A DNA stretch of 43,340 bases from positions 1-43,340 of the IMG/VR virus record IMGVR_UViG_3300047094_001413; one strand, written 5' to 3'. The notes under the pieces are model-generated. The model was not told the DNA's origin and ran no database searches. It saw only the letters and a list, made by a program, of their open reading frames with translations. The first letter of the stretch is position 1; each line of letters opens with the position of its first letter. The translations under genes were made by a program, and so were the position numbers. Source of the DNA: a virus. This document shows positions 26,332 through 37,711 of this stretch, in pieces.

Positions 26332-27333
26332 ATGGCGACTCCTCAATTATCTCCTGGTGTACTGACTAGAGAGGTTGATTTAACCGTAGGAAGAGCTGAC
26401 AACGTATTAGATAATATTGGAGGTATTGCAGGACCTTTTGAAATTGGTCCTGTAAACGAACCAATTACTGTTGCTACGGAACAGGAACTAATCAACAACT
26501 TTGGTAAGCCACAAACAGCAGATAACCAGTATGAATATTGGATGAGTGGTTCATCTTACCTCTCATATGGCGGTGTTCTAAAGGTCGTTAGAACTGATGG
26601 TGCTAACCTTTCAAACGCTAACGTTGGTGTTGGTACAACTAGCGTAACTGGTGTTAAAATCAAAAACTTTGATGATTTTAATGCAAACTTCACAAATACT
26701 GCAGCAAGTTTTTACTACGCTGCAAAAAACCCAGGAACATGGGCAAATGGGTTAAAGGTTTGCTACATTGATGATTTAGGAGATCAAATTCTTGGTATTG
26801 CAACAACTGCTTTAAGCAGCATTGGTGTTCAAGTTGGATATGCAGTAACAGTAGATATTAGTGGTCAAGTTATTCCTGGAACTGGAACGACTGCTGTCTT
26901 CCAAGGATATTTAAAAGGAGTTATTACTCAAGCAATTGATTCTCCAGAAACTGGTGTTAGTGCTGTAGTCGTAAAAATTCATTCTAGAGTTTCTACTGGT
27001 GGAACTGAGCCTGGAAGACATTTTAGAACATATTATACCCAAAATAGTGCTTTTGCATCTTTCTTAAAAGATCAAAGGATTACCGTTATTGATAATAATG
27101 GAGAAGTTGCCTCACCAACAGATTCTATTTCTGCAGTAGGAGTTACATCATCTACCGCAATAAATGGTCAACAAGGACAATCATATACTGGAGTTGGTGG
27201 AACAACTGCGGGAACTGGGTCTGGAGCAACATTCACCATCACTAGAAATAATACTGATGGTAATGTTTTGAGTGCAAGTATTGTAAATGCAGGATTAGGT
27301 TACACTGTAGGTGACACAGTATCTATTGCTTGA
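26332..27333 (+). CDS. gp18: Tail sheath protein gp18, N-terminal part up to in-frame TGA
   Basis: The subunit of the contractile sheath. The start is typical of the family (MATPQLSPGVLTREVDLTVG, then NIGGIAGPFEIGPVNEPITV). This part of 333 residues ends at the TGA at 27331-27333, in the middle of a Gly-Tyr repeat (VNAGLGYTVGDTVSIA). The same frame continues without another stop to 29127, giving 932 codons in all against 659 residues in T4. The extra length is a repeat-rich insert around residues 285-420. Ribosome site GGAGA precedes the ATG. Without readthrough the product would lack the conserved C-terminal core and could not polymerise, so either the TGA is a sequence error or mutation, or it is read through. 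Confidence 0.85.
   Translation: MATPQLSPGVLTREVDLTVGRADNVLDNIGGIAGPFEIGPVNEPITVATEQELINNFGKPQTADNQYEYWMSGSSYLSYGGVLKVVRTDGANLSNANVGVGTTSVTGVKIKNFDDFNANFTNTAASFYYAAKNPGTWANGLKVCYIDDLGDQILGIATTALSSIGVQVGYAVTVDISGQVIPGTGTTAVFQGYLKGVITQAIDSPETGVSAVVVKIHSRVSTGGTEPGRHFRTYYTQNSAFASFLKDQRITVIDNNGEVASPTDSISAVGVTSSTAINGQQGQSYTGVGGTTAGTGSGATFTITRNNTDGNVLSASIVNAGLGYTVGDTVSIA
27331..27333 (+). other. In-frame TGA inside gp18
   Basis: Codon 334 of gp18. Aligning the two repeat units of the same protein (TVSIA-X-TAVG against VVTIP-G-ASIG) puts the stop where the other copy has a GGA glycine, so a single G-to-T change explains it. The next base is A (TGA-A), a context known to be leaky in E. coli. TGA serves as the ordinary stop of gp21, gp22, gp23, gp3 and uvsY here, so the code is standard. 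Confidence 0.9.
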
Positions 27334-29127
27334 ACTGCAGTCGGTTGTTACAATTTATCCCAAGGTGTTATTAACAATATTGGACTTACAACTGCTCCTG
27401 TAGTTGTAGCAGCATCTAATGGAGTATATCTTGCTGTTGCTGGAGTAAGCACAGTTGGAACTGGTGTGTCGTTTAATGTTTATAGAAATAGTTCTGGTGG
27501 AATTGGAACTGTTACAATGGTCAATCCTGGACTAGGATATGGTTCAAATACAGTTGTTACTATTCCTGGAGCATCAATTGGTGGTGTAACTCCTGGAGAT
27601 AATGCAACTTTAACCATCACATCTTTAAGGGATGATAAAGTTGTTCTTACAGTAACAAATAGCAATTCGAGAGTTGTGATTGCAGGCGTTGATGACTGGT
27701 ATGATTCTCAAACTTTAGGATTAAGTAATTCAACCATTTATTGGAGAACAGTTGCACCAAAACCAGGAACATCAAATTATGTTTCTGAAAGAGGTGGAGA
27801 AAATGATGAGATGCACGTTATAGTTGTTGATGACGATGGTACATTAACTGGCGTAAAGGGAAATATTCTTGAGAAGCATCTCTTTATGTCCAAAGCAAAG
27901 GACACTGTATCTGAAGTTAATTCTCCACAAAAAATGTGGTACAAGAATTATCTTGCAAATTATTCAAACTATCTGTACGCTGGTGCCAACCAATCAACTC
28001 AAAATGATATAGTTTGGAATACATTCCCAACATCAACAATATTTAATTTAGCAGCAACTCAAACAATTTATAATTTATCAGATCCAGCAACTACGTTTAG
28101 TGTTCCATCATTAGCAAATACAGTTTGGGATAGAAACTCTAAGGATTCAGTATTCTCTTCCATTGGTAGAGTTGTTTATGACTTAGGCAAGGGTAAAAAT
28201 TACACAACTCAAGGTAATTTAAAATCTACCCTAGGAGATATTATTGAATCATATGAGTTATTCAATAATAAAGAAGATGTTGCTGTAGACTACCTGCTTA
28301 TGGGACCAGGATTGGATTCTCTTAGTGATTCCCAAGCAAAGGCAAATAAACTAATTTCTATCGCTGACGGTAGAAAAGATTGTATTGCGGTAGTATCTCC
28401 ACACAGAGCATCTGTTGTTGATCTAACAAACCCAATTGTTCAAACTAATAATATTATTGAATTCTTTGGTCCACTTCAATCTTCATCATATGCAATTTTT
28501 GATAGTGGTTATAAGTACACTTATGATAGATTTAATAACTTATTCCGATATATTCCTTGCAACCCAGACGTTGCTGGTCTAATGGCAAGAACAAACTTAA
28601 TTGCTTATCCATGGTTCTCACCTGCTGGTCAGCAAAGAGGTGTTCTGAAGAATGCTATCAAGTTGGCATTCAATCCAAATAAAACTCAAAGAGATGCTTT
28701 ATACTCAGCGAGAATTAATTCTATCGTAAATCAAAATGGTGCAGGTATTCTTCTATTCGGAGATAAAACTGCATTATCATATGCATCTGCATTTGATAGA
28801 ATTAACGTTCGTAGATTATTCTTAACTGTTGAACAAGCACTCGAAAGAGCAGCAGAAGCTCAACTCTTTGAATTTAATGATCAAATTACGAGATCTAATT
28901 TTGTAAATATCGTCGAACCATACTTACGTGATATCCAAGCTAAGCGTGGAATCTATGACTTCCTTGTAATTTGCGACGAAACCAACAACACTCCAGATAT
29001 TATTGATAACAATGAATTTAGAGCTGATATATTCTTGAAGCCAGCTAAATCAATTAACTATATCACCCTAACATTTGTTGCGACAAGAACTGGAGTCAGT
29101 TTTGAAGAAGTCGCTGGTAGAGTTTAA
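27334..29127 (+). CDS. gp18: Tail sheath protein gp18, C-terminal part downstream of TGA
   Basis: In frame with the upstream part and free of stops for 597 codons. The first possible restart is a GTG at 27466; no ribosome site is visible before it, so an independent gene is unlikely. After a repeat unit (VNPGLGYGSNTVVTIPG) comes the conserved sheath core: GVKGNILEKHLFMSKAKDTV, VDYLLMGPGLDSL, RKDCIAVVSPHRASVVDL, YPWFSPAGQQRGVLKNAIKL and the C-terminal EPYLRDIQAKRGIYDFLVIC followed by NYITLTFVATRTGVSFEEV. These segments form the inner domains that bind the tube and neighbouring subunits. Gene gp19 follows after 38 bases. Confidence 0.85.
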   Translation, partial: TAVGCYNLSQGVINNIGLTTAPVVVAASNGVYLAVAGVSTVGTGVSFNVYRNSSGGIGTVTMVNPGLGYGSNTVVTIPGASIGGVTPGDNATLTITSLRDDKVVLTVTNSNSRVVIAGVDDWYDSQTLGLSNSTIYWRTVAPKPGTSNYVSERGGENDEMHVIVVDDDGTLTGVKGNILEKHLFMSKAKDTVSEVNSPQKMWYKNYLANYSNYLYAGANQSTQNDIVWNTFPTSTIFNLAATQTIYNLSDPATTFSVPSLANTVWDRNSKDSVFSSIGRVVYDLGKGKNYTTQGNLKSTLGDIIESYELFNNKEDVAVDYLLMGPGLDSLSDSQAKANKLISIADGRKDCIAVVSPHRASVVDLTNPIVQTNNIIEFFGPLQSSSYAIFDSGYKYTYDRFNNLFRYIPCNPDVAGLMARTNLIAYPWFSPAGQQRGVLKNAIKLAFNPNKTQRDALYSARINSIVNQNGAGILLFGDKTALSYASAFDRINVRRLFLTVEQALERAAEAQLFEFNDQITRSNFVNIVEPYLRDIQAKRGIYDFLVICDETNNTPDIIDNNEFRADIFLKPAKSINYITLTFVATRTGVSFEEVAGRV

Positions 29128-29799: not shown

Positions 29800-31446
29800 A
29801 TGGCAAAACTATTTGGATTCTCTATAGAGGATAGTAATAAAAAATCACCAGGAGTGGTCTCCCCCGTACCTCAAAATAATGAGGACGGGGTTGACTATTA
29901 TCTTACTAGTGGATTTTTTGGGTCTTATGTAGATATTGAAGGGGTATATAGAAGTGAATATGATTTAATCAAAAGATATCGAGAGATGGCATTGCATCCA
30001 GAAGTTGATGGTGCTATTGAAGATATTGTAAATGAGGCAATTGTAAGTGATACCAATGATAGTCCAGTTCAAATTGATCTTGACAATCTAAATGCTAGTG
30101 ATGGTCTTAAGAAAAAAATAAGAGAAGAGTTTAAGCATATTTTAGAATTAATGGACTTTGATAAAAAAGCCCATGAGATCTATAGAAATTGGTATGTTGA
30201 CGGTAGACTTTATTATCATAAAGTTATTGACTTAAAAAATCCACAAGATGGCATTCAGGAACTAAGATATATTGACGCATTGAAAATGCGATATGTTAGG
30301 CAGTCTTCTAAGGGTAAGAAAGATGATGGAAGACTTGGACCTAATGGTGAAAAGGATCCAATGGATTCTGCATTTCCAGATATTCAGGAATACTTTATTT
30401 ACAATGCCTCAGCAACTCAAATAGGAACAATCAATAATAGTTCAAATCAAGTAAATCAAGGAACAAAATTTTCAAAAGATTCTATTACATTTTGTACTTC
30501 TGGTCTAGTCGATAGAAATAAAAATTTAACTCTATCATATTTGCATAAAGCAATTAAATCACTCAATCAACTTCGCATGATTGAAGATTCTTTGGTTATC
30601 TACAGATTATCAAGAGCACCAGAACGTAGAATTTTTTATATTGATGTTGGCAATTTGCCTAAAATGAAGGCAGAACAATATCTTCGTGATGTTATGATGA
30701 GATATCGTAACAAACTGGTATATGATGCAAATACTGGTGAGATTCGTGATGATAAAAAATATATGAGTATGCTTGAGGATTTTTGGCTCCCTAGGAGGGA
30801 AGGTGGTAGAGGAACAGAAATTTCTACTCTTCCTGGTGGTCAAAATTTAGGTGAATTGAGCGATATCAAATACTTCCAAGAAAAGTTATACCGTTCATTA
30901 AACGTACCATCTTCAAGAATTGGTGGTCAAGAAGGATTTAACTTAGGAAGGTCTTCAGAAATTTTAAGAGATGAATTAAAGTTTACTAAATTTGTTGGAA
31001 GATTAAGAAAGAGATTCTCAAACATGTTTAGTGACATGTTAAGAACTCAACTACTTCTTAAAAACATAGTTACTCCAGAAGATTGGGAGTTAATGGAAGA
31101 GCATATTCAATATGACTTCTTATATGATAATCATTTTGCAGAGTTAAAAGATGCTGAATTAATGACTGAAAGGTTAAATATTGCAGCAACAGCAGAACCA
31201 TATATTGGCAAGTATTATTCTCAAGATTATGTAAGACGTAAAATTTTACGTCAAACAGATGAAGAAATCATTGAGCAAGATAAACTTATCAAAAAGGAAA
31301 TTGCTGCTGGCATTATTCCAGACCCAAATGCTCCTATTGATCCTGCAACTGGTCAACCAGTTGCCGCAGATCAGAATCTTGGAGCACCGATTAACGAACC
31401 AAACTTAGATAGTCAAAGTAAATCTGTAGAACCGCCACAAATTTAA
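29800..31446 (+). CDS. gp20: Portal vertex protein gp20
   Basis: A dodecameric portal through which gp17 packages DNA and on which the prohead is nucleated. It has 548 residues (T4 524). Family segments include YLTSGFFGSYVDIEG, RYREMALHPEVDGAIEDIVN, LRYIDALKMRYVR, YRLSRAPERRIFYIDVGNLP, DFWLPRREGGRGTEISTLPG and LNVPSSRIGG. The C-terminal 50 residues are a Pro/Gln/Asn-rich low-complexity tail (GIIPDPNAPIDPATGQPVAA). No obvious ribosome site precedes the ATG. In T4 the next genes are 67, 68 and 21; here a 5-kb accessory island separates gp20 from them. Confidence 0.96.
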   Translation: MAKLFGFSIEDSNKKSPGVVSPVPQNNEDGVDYYLTSGFFGSYVDIEGVYRSEYDLIKRYREMALHPEVDGAIEDIVNEAIVSDTNDSPVQIDLDNLNASDGLKKKIREEFKHILELMDFDKKAHEIYRNWYVDGRLYYHKVIDLKNPQDGIQELRYIDALKMRYVRQSSKGKKDDGRLGPNGEKDPMDSAFPDIQEYFIYNASATQIGTINNSSNQVNQGTKFSKDSITFCTSGLVDRNKNLTLSYLHKAIKSLNQLRMIEDSLVIYRLSRAPERRIFYIDVGNLPKMKAEQYLRDVMMRYRNKLVYDANTGEIRDDKKYMSMLEDFWLPRREGGRGTEISTLPGGQNLGELSDIKYFQEKLYRSLNVPSSRIGGQEGFNLGRSSEILRDELKFTKFVGRLRKRFSNMFSDMLRTQLLLKNIVTPEDWELMEEHIQYDFLYDNHFAELKDAELMTERLNIAATAEPYIGKYYSQDYVRRKILRQTDEEIIEQDKLIKKEIAAGIIPDPNAPIDPATGQPVAADQNLGAPINEPNLDSQSKSVEPPQI

Positions 31447-31449
31447 ATT

Positions 31450-32112
31450 ATGAATCGTTATCATAGATTTTTGGATATTAGGGACTATATCCCTAATATT
31501 GATACATCAAAGTATCAAACTGAAGGTATGAGATGGCCAGAGTTTCATAAACAACTTCAATTTGAAGACCTGGGTAATGATAAAATTTTACCCTGGTTGA
31601 ATAGTTTGGGATTTACATCACACTGGATAGAATTTTTTTATACTCCACCACATGATGATGGAGTTATACATTCTGATAATGTTTATTATGCTGATTGGGC
31701 AAAACTAATATTTCAATTTGGTGCAAAAGGAAGCACCATGAGATGGTGGACATCGGATATGGTTTTAAGAGTAAGTACCAGTGCTGAGCAAGTTTATTCA
31801 ACAGTTATACCAGAACGTAATCAATATAGTGTTGGAGATAGAACTGATGATCATTATCATGGACAAGTTTTAGTCAGTAGAGAAGAATACTGTAAAAAAG
31901 AATATGAGGTAGAGATAGGCACATGCGGATTAGTGAATGTTGGTCCATTACATAGTTCACATAATCCAACAGATGATAAAAGATTTACAGTAACTATTGC
32001 TTTAATTGACAAGGATAAAGATTATGAACATCGTATTTTGTGGGATGAGGCATTGCAAGCATTCAAACCTTACATAATTGATTCTTCAATAGACCTTTGC
32101 GCCGCAAAATAA
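31450..32112 (+). CDS. Putative 2OG-Fe(II) oxygenase-like protein
   Basis: A 220-residue protein starting three bases after gp20. A likely iron-binding HxD is His74-Ser-Asp76 (DDGVIHSDN), with a distal His168 or His171 (GPLHSSHNP) and an Arg178 (DKRFTVTIAL) about ten residues later that could hold 2-oxoglutarate. This is the double-stranded beta-helix HxD...H...R layout of 2OG oxygenases. Asp/Asn-hydroxylase-like members are common in marine phages. Substrate unknown; a phage protein, a host protein or a surface sugar are all possible. Its last 50 bases overlap, tail to tail, the radical SAM gene on the other strand. I am moderately sure of the fold and not of the activity. Confidence 0.6.
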   Translation: MNRYHRFLDIRDYIPNIDTSKYQTEGMRWPEFHKQLQFEDLGNDKILPWLNSLGFTSHWIEFFYTPPHDDGVIHSDNVYYADWAKLIFQFGAKGSTMRWWTSDMVLRVSTSAEQVYSTVIPERNQYSVGDRTDDHYHGQVLVSREEYCKKEYEVEIGTCGLVNVGPLHSSHNPTDDKRFTVTIALIDKDKDYEHRILWDEALQAFKPYIIDSSIDLCAAK

Positions 32113-33835
32113 ACACAGTATGAGGATCATTCTTATCAAATGATTTGAATTCAGTATCTATTTTGTACTTTTTATCTTCACATGTGAGATAAAAAGGATA
32201 TTGAGTCTCCTCGTCAAAAATAAACGCACGTTGTAAAGATATAATATCTGTTTTGATTGGTGTTATTTTTTGTGTTGCATTCTCTACGAGTTTAAAAATT
32301 TCATCCTTATGCGTAAACATAAAAGCAAAACTTCCCGCATGTAAGGTATGCCCATGCTTTCCTTTTTTCAATATTTTTCCAGTTTTCATATAATGATTTA
32401 CCGCAGATTCAATCTCACGATAATGTTCACCTATTAATCCATTATCCAACTTAATAAATTCAAATAAAGTATCATAAAATACCCGATAGGATATATTTAA
32501 ATTTTCATAATAGTGTTTAGCAACTATCTGAGTATATCCAGCAATATGAAATTGAACAATTAACCATCCATACATATACGCTTCAATTAATTGATTATTT
32601 GTCATTGTATTAGTTTCTGAGATTAATTCGATTGTTTCAGTAACACCATCATAATCTCTATCATTTCCAAAAGATACATAATCTTCCGCTTTAATTGTTT
32701 TTATTCCATAAACTTCCCTTGAAGTAGTACTATTTAATTCAGTATCACCAAACATTTGACAAAACCAAACATCAATAGATTCGTGCTGACCACATTCAAG
32801 AATTTTAGAAAACCCATCTTTCCAAGTATCTAAAGTTTCTTCGGGTAGACCAAGAATCAATTCGGTATATGTTTTTACACCATATTCTTTACTTTTTTCA
32901 ATTTGTTCTGATATTTTATTAATACTCATATTTTTTCTTTTGATTGCTTTAAGTGTTGGTTCATTCATGGTTTGTACACTTAAAGTTACACCTCTACTAA
33001 TATCTCCAAGTATTTTTGCTATCTCAAAAATTACTTCAGTAGAATTTTTAGAGTATTGTATGTTTATTGCTTCAAGATTGCCTTCATCTGCTGCTTCTCT
33101 GAATAACTTTGCAATTTCTAAATCTCGTTCTTTAAACATACCAAAATTTGCATCAGCATTAAAAATGAATCCAACATTGTTTTTCCTGGCCCAATCAATA
33201 TCATCTTTAACTCTTTGAATATCAAAGTGCCTTACTTTTGTATAAGTTAATCCACCCCAGTCACAATAAGTGCATCTATGAGGGCAACCCCTGTTAGTTT
33301 CCATAGTCATTGCCCATAAAACACCTGGGTTGTCTTCAATAATTTTATCGAATACCCCAATTTGATATGGACTTGGAAAGTTTAAATCCTCAATTCTTTT
33401 TTTTGCATAGATTTTGTCAATTTTTTCTTTGTTATTTACTTTCCTTAAAAAATCTAAAAATGCTTCCTCACCCTCTGATACAATAATACAGTCGATAAAA
33501 TCATATTCATTTAATCTATGTGTTGCTTGTGGTCCGCCAAATTCAATAATACATTCTGGAAATCTTTCTTTGATTAATTTTGCTACATGAAGATTGTATT
33601 GTTCATTCCAAACATAACAACTAAAAGCACATATTGCAGGGTTATCTAACCTATCAATTAATTCTTCTGGGTCTTCTCTTCTGAATATGAGATCTTTTAA
33701 TGTGTAGTTTTTTACTATATCTTCAAACTGTGAGCAATATGCCCATAAACATCCGACACTATATGGCAACCAATAAGTATCTTCTTTCCTAATTTCAACC
33801 GCATATTGTGGTTGGAGCATGTAAAGATTTTTCAT
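32063..33835 (-). CDS. Radical SAM protein, second tandem copy
   Basis: A 590-residue enzyme of the radical SAM superfamily. The cluster motif is Cys184-x3-Cys188-x2-Cys191 (NRGCPHRCTYCDWGG), which should bind a [4Fe-4S] cluster and SAM. The first 170 residues resemble a B12-binding-type Rossmann domain (AFSCYVWNEQYNLHVAKLIK, IIEFGGPQ, IIVSEGEEAFLDFLR) but lack the DxHxxG cobalamin motif, so B12 use is doubtful. Later radical SAM landmarks are FIFNADANFGMFKERD, SVQTMNEPTLKAIKRKN and YTELILGLPEETLDTWKDG. Its ATG overlaps the stop of the upstream paralogue (ATGA). The substrate cannot be inferred from the sequence. Its 3' end lies inside the oxygenase gene on the other strand. Confidence 0.85.
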   Translation of the reverse strand: MKNLYMLQPQYAVEIRKEDTYWLPYSVGCLWAYCSQFEDIVKNYTLKDLIFRREDPEELIDRLDNPAICAFSCYVWNEQYNLHVAKLIKERFPECIIEFGGPQATHRLNEYDFIDCIIVSEGEEAFLDFLRKVNNKEKIDKIYAKKRIEDLNFPSPYQIGVFDKIIEDNPGVLWAMTMETNRGCPHRCTYCDWGGLTYTKVRHFDIQRVKDDIDWARKNNVGFIFNADANFGMFKERDLEIAKLFREAADEGNLEAINIQYSKNSTEVIFEIAKILGDISRGVTLSVQTMNEPTLKAIKRKNMSINKISEQIEKSKEYGVKTYTELILGLPEETLDTWKDGFSKILECGQHESIDVWFCQMFGDTELNSTTSREVYGIKTIKAEDYVSFGNDRDYDGVTETIELISETNTMTNNQLIEAYMYGWLIVQFHIAGYTQIVAKHYYENLNISYRVFYDTLFEFIKLDNGLIGEHYREIESAVNHYMKTGKILKKGKHGHTLHAGSFAFMFTHKDEIFKLVENATQKITPIKTDIISLQRAFIFDEETQYPFYLTCEDKKYKIDTEFKSFDKNDPHTVFILRRKGLLKNQLCKV

Positions 33836-35622
33836 AGTTTTACCATTGTATTTTTTGTAAGATACTTTCTTTTGATAACGAACAAATTATATCTTTCATC
33901 TTCGGTTCTTTCATTTTCTATGGAATATTTTGTATCTCTTTTTTCCCATGTATCTAAGTCAAACGGTAAACTATCAACATATGGATAATTTACATCTGGG
34001 TCATAAACAAACTTTCTCTGGATATCAAAGATACTTTCTTCTATATTAAAAGTTGTCCTTGCAAAATTTTCAACAAAATCTAGTATCTTATCTTTATTTT
34101 CAAATCTAGATAAAGTATCATTTGGCATACCAACTCCCAATCCATGTCCACTTGAGTGGTTAGAAGGAACTTTTCCAGTATTAAAGTATTCCTTTATTGC
34201 CTTTAAATATTCCCTAAACTCAGTTCCTAAGAAACCAGAAACATACAATGATTCATAAAATTTTCTATAACTTATTCCTAATACATGGCGACAATACTTG
34301 GATAAAATTTGTGTGTATCCAACATAGTGAAATTTAATTGTTATCCAAGAAAACATATGAGCATCAAAAAAGTCTTGTTTAGACATTGTATCAGTCTCAC
34401 AAATTAATTCGACATATTCTTTTGTAGCATCAAACTCATCATTACAGAATGATATATAATCTTCTGCTTTAATTGTTTTTATACCATAAGTTTTTCTACT
34501 AAATTCACTACCCAATTCAGCATTTTCAAATACTTGGCAGAACCAGGAGTCTACAGAAAAATGTTGCCCGTTTTCCATCAACAAATCAATTCCATCCTTC
34601 CAAGAATCTACTGTTTCTTCGGGCATCCCCAAAATTAAATCTGTGTATAATTTTACATTATGTTTTTTTGCTAATTCTACATGTCCAGCAATATCTTTAA
34701 CGTGTAAATTCTTTCTCTTGATAGCTTTTAATGTCGGCATATTCATACTTTGAACACTCAAAGTAACTCCTCTTCTAGAGTATTCTCCCATAATTTTTGC
34801 TATTTCAAAAGCAGATTCGTTTGAATTTTTTGAATACTGCAAATCTATATTGTCTAGAATTAAACTATTTTCAGCTGCTTTACGCAACATTTTTGCTATT
34901 TCAATATCACGTTCTTTAAATATTCCAAAGTTTGCATCAGCGCATAAGACATAAGCAACTCTATGTGTTCGTATCCATTCAATATCTTCAGCGACTCTCT
35001 CTAGTCCAAATGTATTAATTTTACTCATAGTTGTTCCACCCCAATCACAAAAAGTACATCTGTGAGGACAACCTCTATTTGTTTCTAAAATTGCTGCCCA
35101 AATAACATCTGGATTTTTATCATATAACCAATCAAAGACTCCAGATTGATAGGGACTTTTAAAGTCTAAAGAATTTATCCTCGTTCTTTCATGAACTTTA
35201 TTGATTGGATTTCCAGTATTAATGCATCTCAATAATTCTAAAAATGCCTCTTCACCTTCACCAAGAATAACACAATCAATGAATGGATTTTCTTCCATCA
35301 TTTTTGCGGTTACTTGGGGACCACCAAATTCAATAATGCAGTTTGGATATTTTTGTTTTATTAGTTTAGCAAGGTGTAGATTATATTGTTCATTCCATAG
35401 GTAACAACTAAAAGCACAAATTGTAGGATTATCTAATCTTTTTAGCAGTTCTTCTGGATTTTCTCTTTTAAAGATAATATCTTTTAACTCAAATGACTCT
35501 GCTATATCTTTAAATTGTTTACAATAACTCCATAAGCAAGAAACACTATAAGGCATCCAATAATTCTTAGTGTCTCTTACATTAACACTATATTGTGGTT
35601 GGATAAAATATATATTTTTCAT
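33832..35622 (-). CDS. Radical SAM protein, first tandem copy
   Basis: A 596-residue paralogue of the gene just downstream; by eye 68 of the first 100 aligned residues are identical. Cys185, Cys189 and Cys192 (NRGCPHRCTFCDWGG) form the radical SAM cluster site. The N-terminal Rossmann-like domain again lacks DxHxxG. Other shared segments are VLCADANFGIFKERDIEIAK, SVQSMNMPTLKAIKRKN and YTDLILGMPEETVDSWKDG. The two copies diverge most in the C-terminal 150 residues, here with a His/Gly loop (NHSSGHGLGVGMPND). It sits second in a three-gene - strand operon with ATGA overlaps on both sides, so all three are translated together. The product of the reaction is unknown. Confidence 0.85.
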   Translation of the reverse strand: MKNIYFIQPQYSVNVRDTKNYWMPYSVSCLWSYCKQFKDIAESFELKDIIFKRENPEELLKRLDNPTICAFSCYLWNEQYNLHLAKLIKQKYPNCIIEFGGPQVTAKMMEENPFIDCVILGEGEEAFLELLRCINTGNPINKVHERTRINSLDFKSPYQSGVFDWLYDKNPDVIWAAILETNRGCPHRCTFCDWGGTTMSKINTFGLERVAEDIEWIRTHRVAYVLCADANFGIFKERDIEIAKMLRKAAENSLILDNIDLQYSKNSNESAFEIAKIMGEYSRRGVTLSVQSMNMPTLKAIKRKNLHVKDIAGHVELAKKHNVKLYTDLILGMPEETVDSWKDGIDLLMENGQHFSVDSWFCQVFENAELGSEFSRKTYGIKTIKAEDYISFCNDEFDATKEYVELICETDTMSKQDFFDAHMFSWITIKFHYVGYTQILSKYCRHVLGISYRKFYESLYVSGFLGTEFREYLKAIKEYFNTGKVPSNHSSGHGLGVGMPNDTLSRFENKDKILDFVENFARTTFNIEESIFDIQRKFVYDPDVNYPYVDSLPFDLDTWEKRDTKYSIENERTEDERYNLFVIKRKYLTKNTMVKL

Positions 35623-36515
35623 AACGTAGAGATAACCTTATTATGTTGTTCGATTGCTCTTTGATGGAAATATTTATCGTCCCATCGCCTAATATCTCTC
35701 TCCATTAAGTTGTCATTGGATTTACCAAAACTAAAAAAATCATTTAAACTAAAATTATCTTTGTCGTTTTCCCACCATTCTTTATATGCTTCATAACAAC
35801 AAATAAAAGATTTCATTGGATACCATTCAGTAACATGAGTTGATCCTTTAAAAAAAGGATTACATGGAATTAATGGTACAGTATACGTATTCCCAGTTTG
35901 ACATAAAAAATAATCTGGAGTCCCTGCAAGATCGTTAAAGAAATAATTATCGCCTATTCCAGATTCTCTATTGATATAAATTGAGTTGGCAACAACTCCA
36001 TTAAATTTATATCTACCATTGATATAAAAAAGATTCAAAAGTTTTTCAACATGTTCTCGTTTTAATAATACTGGACCAAGAGAATAATTACTTTGAACTG
36101 GATGCAAATAAAATCTAACTATGTCTGGGCACTCATGTCCCAATTGTATAGAATCCCAATCATAAGGAAGATATGTTAATAGATCATCCCAACTAAAATG
36201 CCAATGATTGATAAAACTCAAATCATAATCATCTTCCATTAATATTACATAAGATTCATTTGTTTCAAAATACCAATTTCTTAAAGTATCAATTAAAAAA
36301 TAATTGTATGCTAAACATCGTTTAGATGCTAATTCTGAATGAACATCTAATATTTTTTCCTTTAAGTATTCTGGAAACCCCAATGGCATTGAGATTTTTG
36401 TAAATGTAATGCCATATAATTTAAATTGTTCCTCCATATATTTTTGTCGTTTTACTTCATTGTCTAAAGTAAAATAAAATACATGAGGGAAATTTTTTAA
36501 TTTATCACAACTCAT
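35619..36515 (-). CDS. Family 25-type glycosyltransferase
   Basis: First gene of the - strand operon. I prefer the ATG at 36515 (298 residues, MSCDKLKNFPHVFYFTLDNE) over the ATG at 36539, because the late-type box at 36541-36548 touches the latter but lies 25 bases before the former. The N-terminus (VFYFTLDNEVKRQKYMEEQF) and the nucleotide-sugar/metal site ILMEDDYDLSF (EDD at residues 94-96) match glycosyltransferase family 25, the LPS-type galactosyl- or glucosyltransferases. Later segments (YDWDSIQLGHE, GPVLLKREHVEKLL, GIGDNYFFNDLAG) fit the same fold. It may decorate phage virion proteins or host glycan; acceptor and sugar are unknown. The stop overlaps the first radical SAM gene (ATGA). 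Confidence 0.75.
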   Translation of the reverse strand: MSCDKLKNFPHVFYFTLDNEVKRQKYMEEQFKLYGITFTKISMPLGFPEYLKEKILDVHSELASKRCLAYNYFLIDTLRNWYFETNESYVILMEDDYDLSFINHWHFSWDDLLTYLPYDWDSIQLGHECPDIVRFYLHPVQSNYSLGPVLLKREHVEKLLNLFYINGRYKFNGVVANSIYINRESGIGDNYFFNDLAGTPDYFLCQTGNTYTVPLIPCNPFFKGSTHVTEWYPMKSFICCYEAYKEWWENDKDNFSLNDFFSFGKSNDNLMERDIRRWDDKYFHQRAIEQHNKVISTL

Positions 36516-36540
36516 AATCAAATATATTTTACCCGTCATC

Positions 36541-36548
36541 TATTTATT
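36541..36548 (-). promoter_or_regulatory. Candidate late promoter box for the - strand island
   Basis: On the - strand this reads AATAAATA, identical to the boxes before gp8 and gp20. It ends 25 bases before the ATG at 36515, so the glycosyltransferase and both radical SAM genes could be expressed late, with the virion genes. Confidence 0.45.
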
Positions 36549-36555
36549 CTAAATA
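36548..36555 (+). promoter_or_regulatory. Candidate late promoter box, + strand, back to back
   Basis: TCTAAATA directed rightward, sharing one base with the leftward box. It ends 12 bases before the ATG of the 57-residue gene, like the TCTAAATA 11 bases before gp3. The short spacing implies a very short leader, which makes it less certain. Confidence 0.35.
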
Positions 36556-36567
36556 CTAGAGTAATTC

Positions 36568-36741
36568 ATGAGAATATCAATGGAAGAACTTCTAGATATG
36601 ATTGTTGGTGATGAAGCACCATCTACAATTTCTGATAAGATTAAAGATTTGCTCTACACTCGCTCAGCAGAAAAAATCGAAGTGTTGAGACCATCCGTTT
36701 CAAATTCAATGTTTGATTCCATTGCACTAGATGCAGAATAA
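36568..36741 (+). CDS. 57-residue protein in the prohead core gp67 position
   Basis: A short + strand gene (ATG at 36568, TAA at 36739-36741) between the accessory island and gp21, the place of T4 genes 67/68. It reads MRISMEELLDMIVGDEAPST, then ISDKIKDLLYTRSAEKIEVL, then RPSVSNSMFDSIALDAE. The helical ISD-IKD-LY-RSAEKI--LRP-V pattern is one I associate with small head-core proteins of marine T4-like phages. T4 gp67 has a loosely similar helix (AMAARTIDLIKEEKIALA) and an acidic tail that is absent here. A scaffold-core role is likely from position; homology is unproven. Confidence 0.65.
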   Translation: MRISMEELLDMIVGDEAPSTISDKIKDLLYTRSAEKIEVLRPSVSNSMFDSIALDAE

Positions 36742-36783: not shown

Positions 36784-37053
36784 ATGCAAGTAACAAAACC
36801 ACTTTCTATAGAAACTGATTTAGCAACTTCTTCTGGTGCTGGAACAAGTATACTTTCTGCAACATGTGTACGATTATACAATGGAGCTGGTGCAGCAACT
36901 ACAATTGTAATTTCAGAATCTGTTGGGGCAAGTGCATCTTATTCATTTACCTTGCCCACTGGTGCTGTTGAATTTGTACAAAAATTACCTACTGATATTA
37001 TTTGGGCTTCAGCATCATCAATAAAAGTAACAAAAGTAGGATTTACAAATTAA
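36784..37053 (+). CDS. Small beta-rich virion-type protein before gp21
   Basis: An 89-residue protein, rich in Ala, Ser, Thr and Val, with alternating hydrophobic strands (SILSATCVRLYNGAGAATTI, then ASYSFTLPTGAVEFVQKLP, then ASSIKVTKVGFTN). It looks like a single beta-sandwich domain without signal peptide or membrane segment. It has its own late-type box and is followed by gp21 after four bases. I do not recognise the family with certainty. A minor capsid or decoration protein would fit its place among the head genes and its fold, but this is inference. Confidence 0.7.
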   Translation: MQVTKPLSIETDLATSSGAGTSILSATCVRLYNGAGAATTIVISESVGASASYSFTLPTGAVEFVQKLPTDIIWASASSIKVTKVGFTN

Positions 37054-37057
37054 ACCA

Positions 37058-37711
37058 ATGAAACTTATCAGAGAAGAAATCGAAAAGGTTGAAGTTATCA
37101 CCGAGAGTGTTGGTGGTAAAAAACAAATGTATATTTCAGGAGTATTCCTCCAAAGCGAAATGGTAAATCGCAATGGTAGAATGTATCCTTTCTCTATCAT
37201 GGAAAGAGAAGTAAAGAGATATACTAATGATTATGTTAATAAAGGTAGAGCACTTGGGGAGCTAGGACACCCAGATGGTCCCACCGTAAATCTCGATAGA
37301 GTTTCTCATAAGATTACTGAACTTAAGCAAGACGGTAATAATTTTATTGGTAAAGCACAAATCCTACATACCCCAATGGGTAAGATTGCTGAAGCACTTC
37401 TTAAAGACGGAGTAACTCTCGGTGTTTCTTCTCGTGGTATTGGTTCTTTAAGAGAAAATATTAAAGGTGGTTATAAAGAAGTTGGTGAAGACTTCATGCT
37501 TGCAACTGCAGCAGATATTGTTGCCGATCCTTCTGCCCCTGATGCTTTTGTTCAGGGAATTATGGAAGGTAAGGAGTGGATTTGGGATGGTGGAATTCTT
37601 CGTGAAAAGATTGCAAACCAAACCAGACAAAGAATTGAAAATCTTTCTAGAAGAAGAGAATTAGAAGAACATAAGTTAAACTTATTCAATGACTTTTTGA
37701 ATTCCCTTTGA
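37058..37711 (+). CDS. gp21: Prohead maturation protease gp21
   Basis: A serine protease of the herpesvirus-assemblin type that cleaves scaffold and capsid proteins in the prohead. It has 217 residues (T4 212). Conserved parts are SGVFLQSEMVNRNGRMYPFS, the catalytic His71 in ALGELGHPDGP, DRVSHKITEL, and the nucleophile Ser124 or Ser125 in TLGVSSRGIGSL, followed by DIVADPSAPDAFVQGIMEG. The C-terminus is a basic helix that is probably trimmed. No strong ribosome site precedes the ATG, four bases after the upstream stop, so coupling is likely. It ends in TGA. Confidence 0.95.
   Translation: MKLIREEIEKVEVITESVGGKKQMYISGVFLQSEMVNRNGRMYPFSIMEREVKRYTNDYVNKGRALGELGHPDGPTVNLDRVSHKITELKQDGNNFIGKAQILHTPMGKIAEALLKDGVTLGVSSRGIGSLRENIKGGYKEVGEDFMLATAADIVADPSAPDAFVQGIMEGKEWIWDGGILREKIANQTRQRIENLSRRRELEEHKLNLFNDFLNSL

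Follow-up and report, generated by a model that had tools for sequence, protein, structure and literature searches.

The window analysed here is a stretch of viral DNA of 43,340 nucleotides (positions 1 to 43,340 of IMG/VR record IMGVR_UViG_3300047094_001413) that carries an accessory island at 31450-36539, between the genes for the portal protein gp20 and the prohead protease gp21. An open reading frame (ORF) check showed that the island consists of one plus-strand gene, for a predicted 2-oxoglutarate (2OG)-Fe(II)-type oxygenase termed OXY, followed by a three-gene minus-strand operon for a GT25-like glycosyltransferase (GT) and two radical SAM paralogues, radical SAM a and radical SAM b. Assignment of both paralogues as B12-dependent methylases of the TokK/ThnK/CysS type is well supported by their sequences. 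The reading favoured for the island, with about an even chance of being correct, is a module for carbohydrate tailoring, late and exchangeable, in T4-like marine phages of the cyanophage type. The island features are as follows.

31450..32112, plus strand: OXY, predicted 2OG-Fe(II)-type oxygenase, 220 aa, directly 3' of gp20 (motif in homologues, model)
32063..33835, minus strand: radical SAM b, probable core B12-dependent radical SAM methylase (TokK/CysS-like), 590 aa (domains, profiles, residues)
33832..35622, minus strand: radical SAM a, probable second B12-dependent paralogue in the exchangeable slot, 596 aa (domains, profiles)
35619..36539, minus strand: GT25-like glycosyltransferase, 306 aa from the 36539 start (PHROG 2835, relatives, hhalign)
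36541..36555, no strand assigned: divergent late-type promoter box pair TATTTAGAATAAATA, with minus-strand AATAAATA for the operon and plus-strand CTAAATA for gene 36568

Enzyme classes of the island proteins

Both radical SAM proteins, ~52% identical to each other, have a B12-binding domain followed by a radical SAM domain with a Cx3Cx2C motif. They matched Pfam Radical_SAM at 1e-15 and 6e-15, and the B12-binding domain was matched in both, with the score of radical SAM b under the Pfam cut-off. The best curated family for both was KedN5 (NF033712; 8e-53 and 5e-53), at ~180 bits against a curated cut-off of 700, so that they are relatives and not members of that family. A profile of the two paralogues matched TokK (4e-86, residues 22-507) and CysS (4e-44) as the only solved sequences. 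Furthermore, C185/C189/C192, W76, N77 and W194 were invariant in 60 radical SAM sequences, ThnK-like ones included; this alignment contains a protein of S. cattleya that, by its gene neighbourhood, fits ThnK of the thienamycin cluster (the neighbours encode a beta-lactam-synthetase-like Asn_synthase protein, another B12 radical SAM protein, MFS, LysR and PhyH). In TokK, W76 sits under cobalamin while W215, two residues past the last cluster cysteine, maintains the SAM/cobalamin contact (PMC9692996), and Trp75 of CysS takes the same lower-axial position as TokK W76 (PMC12846815). The island proteins share with TokK, ThnK, CysS and KedN5 the N-terminal B12-binding domain, Cx3Cx2C, the lower-axial Trp76 and the Trp two residues past the last cysteine, but differ in their ~30% identity to cellular homologues, in being phage-encoded and in lying beside a glycosyltransferase. 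Since TokK and CysS build alkyl groups through repeated methylation, C-methylase appears to be the best class assignment.

Radical SAM b is the most conserved member of the island and formed one supported clade in the tree, the second-slot proteins falling into several deep clades; three cellular homologues were placed on a long separate branch, to which a long-branch warning applies. A peptide-pattern scan of cellular genome contigs gave one weak match and no close donor, a weak negative because the patterns were strict. Radical SAM a of the window is without five codons (15 bp) that are present in all aligned close relatives, and its frame is open.

GT matches the PHROG 2835 glucosyltransferase (4e-28) and resembles annotated cyanophage GT25 proteins at 26-34% identity. 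No direct match to Pfam PF01755 (GT25) was obtained, and the relation to GT25 runs via a PF01755-positive phage protein (hhalign 99.6%). An acidic MEDD motif, invariant in GT and its relatives, is shared with the cyanophage GT25 proteins of PHROG 2835 along with the sequence match, but the island enzyme differs from them in falling below the Pfam GT25 model and in being coupled to radical SAM genes. An earlier reading of this DNA, made from the sequence only, had begun the gene at 36539; its ORFs were confirmed, but 36515 is the likelier GT start, because the first ATG directly adjoins the late-type box at 36541-36547 and an inner ATG corresponding to 36515 is present in the nearest relatives.

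OXY matched no profile in Pfam, PHROGs or NCBIfam, curated 2OG family profiles included, and had no match among cultured phages. Its 2OG-Fe(II) pattern, H74-x-D76, H168 and R178, was invariant in 33 aligned homologues, with S or T at position 180. An AlphaFold model from a deeper alignment reached a pLDDT of 76.5, as compared with 31 for a six-sequence model. In a Foldseek comparison with the PDB, this model matched mostly 2OG/cupin-fold enzymes (E 1e-4 to 3e-3, at a low TM of ~0.2-0.4), and it also matched unnamed phage proteins at TM 0.65-0.76. Domain, PHROG and motif evidence together bear out the enzyme set first proposed from the sequence, namely GT25, two radical SAM proteins and a predicted 2OG-type oxygenase. 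In one branch (L036:4991-6005, L040:3838-4855 and L041:6490-7465, minus strand), the OXY frame is without an ordinary start at the conserved N-terminus, and an extra ORF of ~130-140 aa precedes it, beside gp20.

Slot, promoter and allele exchange

The genes that bound the slot, all on the plus strand, were identified as follows.

29800..31446, plus strand: portal protein gp20, left slot boundary (Portal_T4 3e-194)
36568..36741, plus strand: small gene at the gp67 position, right island boundary (PHROG 14164; same position in relatives)
36784..37053, plus strand: 89-aa protein (PHROG 19805)
37058..37711, plus strand: prohead protease gp21 (Peptidase_S77 2e-39)

The ORF coordinates agree with the positions and ATGA overlaps claimed from the sequence, the overlaps lying at 33832-33835 (radical SAM a/b) and 35619-35622 (GT/radical SAM a), while OXY and radical SAM b converge with a 50-bp overlap that is kept in relatives. 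The operon had also been described as opposite in strand to every other gene, and apart from its three genes the window indeed has no minus-strand gene of note, other minus-strand ORFs being short and antisense inside plus-strand genes. Paired gp20/gp21 coordinates gave a slot of 5.6 kb in the window versus 0.25-1.9 kb in ~20 cultured cyanophages, and in cyanophage S-SM2 the same flanking genes enclose no island.

A tblastn search of 50,697 cultured-phage records revealed no close relative of either radical SAM protein, and two pattern scans of IMG/VR yielded 93 and 366 confirmed relatives. All 38 contigs with a complete interval from gp20 to gene 36568, some of which are near-copies of one population, hold the island in this slot with the operon in minus-strand orientation. 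GT, two radical SAM proteins and OXY occur together in 17 of the 38 slots, and two radical SAM genes stand by themselves in 7, with GT in 5 and with OXY in 3; GT and OXY accompany one radical SAM gene in 3 slots and three of them in 2, and a single slot contains one radical SAM gene and nothing else. Comparison of the gp20-gp21 interval in T4-like phages, which the sequence-only reading had suggested as a check, thus found the genes not scattered singly at unrelated sites. Of the 61 complete gp20-gp21 slots in IMG/VR whose gp21 is closest to that of the window, five contain the island, all in the closest clade (gp21 ~86% or more), and the rest are empty or hold another insert. A different gp20-gp21 insert was seen in other T4-like phages (L042:5732-7657, minus strand; L150-L202, slots of 2.2-3.1 kb); it encodes a ~400-640-aa protein with repeats in its first part, on the strand of the head genes.

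Two genomes with two radical SAM genes each (G002 and G003) are taken as cyanophages because they carry psbA/psbD-type and transaldolase genes. Neither psbA nor transaldolase was found on searching the partial contigs from the clade to which the window belongs, and CpeT was absent from all contigs searched. From gp20/gp21 similarity, the host of the window phage is likely of the cyanobacterial type.

The sequence TATTTAGAATAAATA (36541-36555), unique in the window, comprises back-to-back late-type boxes between the operon and gene 36568, in which the minus-strand box AATAAATA faces the operon and the plus-strand CTAAATA faces gene 36568. The minus-strand late box noticed earlier is thus present, as one half of the divergent pair TATTTAGAATAAATA. 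Of 38 distinct intergenic regions, that of the window counted, 32 have this sequence or a close variant; for shuffled sequences the mean was 0.015 and the maximum was 2. The late motif of cyanophage S-PM2 is NATAAATA (PMC2984593), and a conserved NATAAATA-type box stands shortly upstream of the first operon gene, the arrangement of a T4-type late unit. By this consensus motif, the operon is likely transcribed late in infection.

Exchange of the cassette was evident from two pairs of near-identical genomes, which outside it are mostly 95-100% identical over ~43-49 kb. Over 43 kb the window and G004 share 92-100% identity (mostly >97%), with two exceptions, namely 32.0-36.4 kb, at 59-88%, and the adjoining small gene 36784; OXY is 99% identical. 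Similarly, G001 and G006 share mostly 93-100% identity across 49 kb, but GT25 and radical SAM a stand at 60-73%, with radical SAM b at ~96%. Within both compared stretches the cassette is the sole strongly divergent segment, so that divergent alleles occupy a fixed site in near-identical genomes, as at an allele-switching locus. Smaller apparent exchanges were found between L050 and L055/L057/L058/L068 (GT only) and between L035 and L067; the pairs L034/L073, L024/L038, L038/L042, L035/L061 and L037/L061, in which different slots of truncated contigs were set side by side, were not counted. Judged by a dN/dS of 0.03-0.19 against relatives, the island genes are under purifying selection. The exchange pattern suggests a variable-specificity locus, for which it is typical, and old recombination without selection is a possible explanation of the same pattern.

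Two side observations concern the neighbouring genes. Like the island, the 89-aa protein at 36784-37053 has been replaced when the window is compared with L032 (54% DNA identity); L024, although distant in other respects, has a 96% identical version, and some relatives do not have this protein. The tail sheath gene (26332-29127) is divided into two ORFs by an in-frame TGA at 27331-27333; recoding was considered and rejected, as all ~66 relative loci have glycine there and the TGA occurs in the window only, and by this comparison it is a window-only mutation or an assembly error.

Sugar linkage, possible function and alternatives

Among 46 viral loci with a radical SAM relative and without gp20/gp21, 32 have one orthologous NDP-sugar epimerase/dehydratase upstream, either immediately next to the radical SAM gene or separated from it by one small gene. 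Other recurrent neighbours of radical SAM relatives are DegT aminotransferases and GTP cyclohydrolase I, and the Azospirillum homologue lies in a GT61/epimerase/transketolase cluster. A precedent for sugar C-methylation by B12 radical SAM enzymes comes from the aminoglycosides, in the biosynthesis of gentamicin (GenK, GenD1). From these epimerase and glycosyltransferase linkages, a sugar is moderately supported as the radical SAM substrate.

A recurrent IMG/VR gene set (L220-L283, L069, L075-L081) combines a DegT-like protein, an NDP-sugar epimerase and the same B12 radical SAM protein, often with a ~380-aa protein without Pfam match and sometimes with GTP cyclohydrolase I. The epimerases that island phages carry at other sites were considered as counterparts of the radical SAM-linked epimerase and rejected, since they are not orthologous. 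In island phages (L135:8343-14335 and L138:14658-17110) a gp46-like recombination gene is followed by a gene of the epimerase family, with a CobS-like AAA gene nearby. Island phage G001 (L136:7090-15569) has two adjacent epimerase-family genes and a GT6, GT4-like, GT25 and HAD/nucleotidyltransferase cluster, and on account of these genes it probably makes its own sugar nucleotides and glycans.

Some likeness to described phage clusters was found. The sugar cluster of Synechococcus phage S-SCSM2R (PQ898602) includes an operon that encodes a GT25-like enzyme (34% identity) together with radical SAM, 2OG oxygenase, DegT-type and GT genes, but its radical SAM protein is of the short SkfB/NifB/PqqE type and not of the B12 family, and the cluster lies at another genome site on the plus strand, with no allele exchange known. 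The pelagimyophage host recognition cluster likewise combines variable radical SAM cassettes with glycosyltransferases in marine T4-like phages, but is located between VrlC and gp14, and the parts of that report consulted mention no B12 family, late promoter or allele replacement (PMC7029224). The marine T4-like genome TARA_ERS488813_N000010 contains 12 radical SAM genes, but the consulted parts of its report name no B12 family, gp20-gp21 island, GT linkage or allele exchange (PMC5332604). The gp20-gp21 island is not described in the sections consulted of reports on radical SAM genes in marine phages.

In the carbohydrate-tailoring module favoured here, the two radical SAM proteins would C-methylate unactivated carbons of a sugar or a sugar-containing acceptor, perhaps more than once in the manner of TokK and CysS, OXY would hydroxylate their product, and the GT25-like enzyme would transfer a glycosyl unit. 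Expression would be late, from the divergent promoter common to the operon and the prohead genes. Late transcription beside prohead genes would make an object present late, a virion glycan or the infected-cell surface, the most likely one to be decorated, and a virion or surface glycan is the best estimate of the final target. The swapped members (GT25, the second radical SAM protein and sometimes the core one) would set the identity of the decoration. A single pathway would then embrace all island genes. The joint late modification pathway of the sequence-only reading holds up in part: a joint module is favoured by the same site and strand in 38 of 38 contigs, all four genes in 17 and the dN/dS of 0.03-0.19, and lateness by the late-type promoter in 32 of 38 distinct intergenic regions, but not all members are obligatory. 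Several points weigh against the carbohydrate-tailoring reading. Some islands do not have GT25 or OXY, so that neither is obligatory for the core reaction; the support for OXY consists of a motif and a medium-confidence model; the T4-like island does not contain the epimerase that accompanies the radical SAM gene in other viruses; and TokK and CysS themselves act on non-sugar substrates.

Alternatives have to be weighed against the same evidence. Collagen GT25 enzymes glycosylate hydroxylysine, and on this model proteins would be modified directly: the radical SAM proteins would C-methylate and OXY would hydroxylate side chains of head proteins (portal, gp67-like, protease, capsid), and GT25 would glycosylate the hydroxylated residue. 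Such protein modification, judged unlikely, fits the fixed site beside head genes and the late-type promoter, and a protein-methylating B12 radical SAM enzyme, Mmp10, is known (PMC9692996). However, the closest relatives are small-molecule tailoring methylases, the viral relatives are linked to a sugar epimerase, collagen-like repeats sought in four large window proteins were not found, and the neighbouring gene 36784 is missing from some island phages. The antibiotic pathways from which the best-characterised relatives come would instead suggest a small diffusible product, an antibiotic-like or cofactor-like metabolite made or tailored by the island and released during or after infection, and allele exchange is compatible with chemistry of competition; it is rendered improbable by the lack of a scaffold enzyme (NRPS, PKS or beta-lactam synthetase) in or beside the island, and by the little gain that late-expressing lytic phages would draw from a secreted product.

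Hypermodification of phage DNA, in which OXY, radical SAM and GT would decorate bases against host nucleases, has the lowest probability of these alternatives. GT and 2OG enzymes are part of known phage DNA modification pathways and GTP cyclohydrolase I recurs beside radical SAM relatives, but the late-type promoter would act after the onset of DNA synthesis, OXY has no TET/JBP match in Pfam, and GT25 is a family of glycan and protein glycosyltransferases. There may also be no common pathway, only separate accessory genes gathered at one insertion hot spot, as the other inserts in the gp20-gp21 slot of other T4-like phages and the modular composition of the island would allow; little probability is given to this, since the ATGA-coupled order, strand, promoter and convergent overlap are kept across divergent phages, and in both exchange pairs GT25 and the second radical SAM gene were replaced jointly.

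B12 radical SAM methylases of the TokK/CysS type have been known mainly from rare antibiotic pathways, and the present relatives form a large viral branch of B12 radical SAM proteins in uncultured viruses that is almost absent from cultured phages. As the near-sole difference between near-identical phages, the cassette marks a function under probable diversifying pressure. Tentatively, and at well below even probability, the island may represent a new phage surface chemistry, in which virion or cell sugars would bear C-methyl or longer alkyl branches installed by B12-radical chemistry and diversified by a late cassette swapped at a fixed site, with phage fitness dependent on host vitamin B12. 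The cassette is a concrete place to seek unusual virion or cell-surface chemistry and a possible dependence on host cobalamin.

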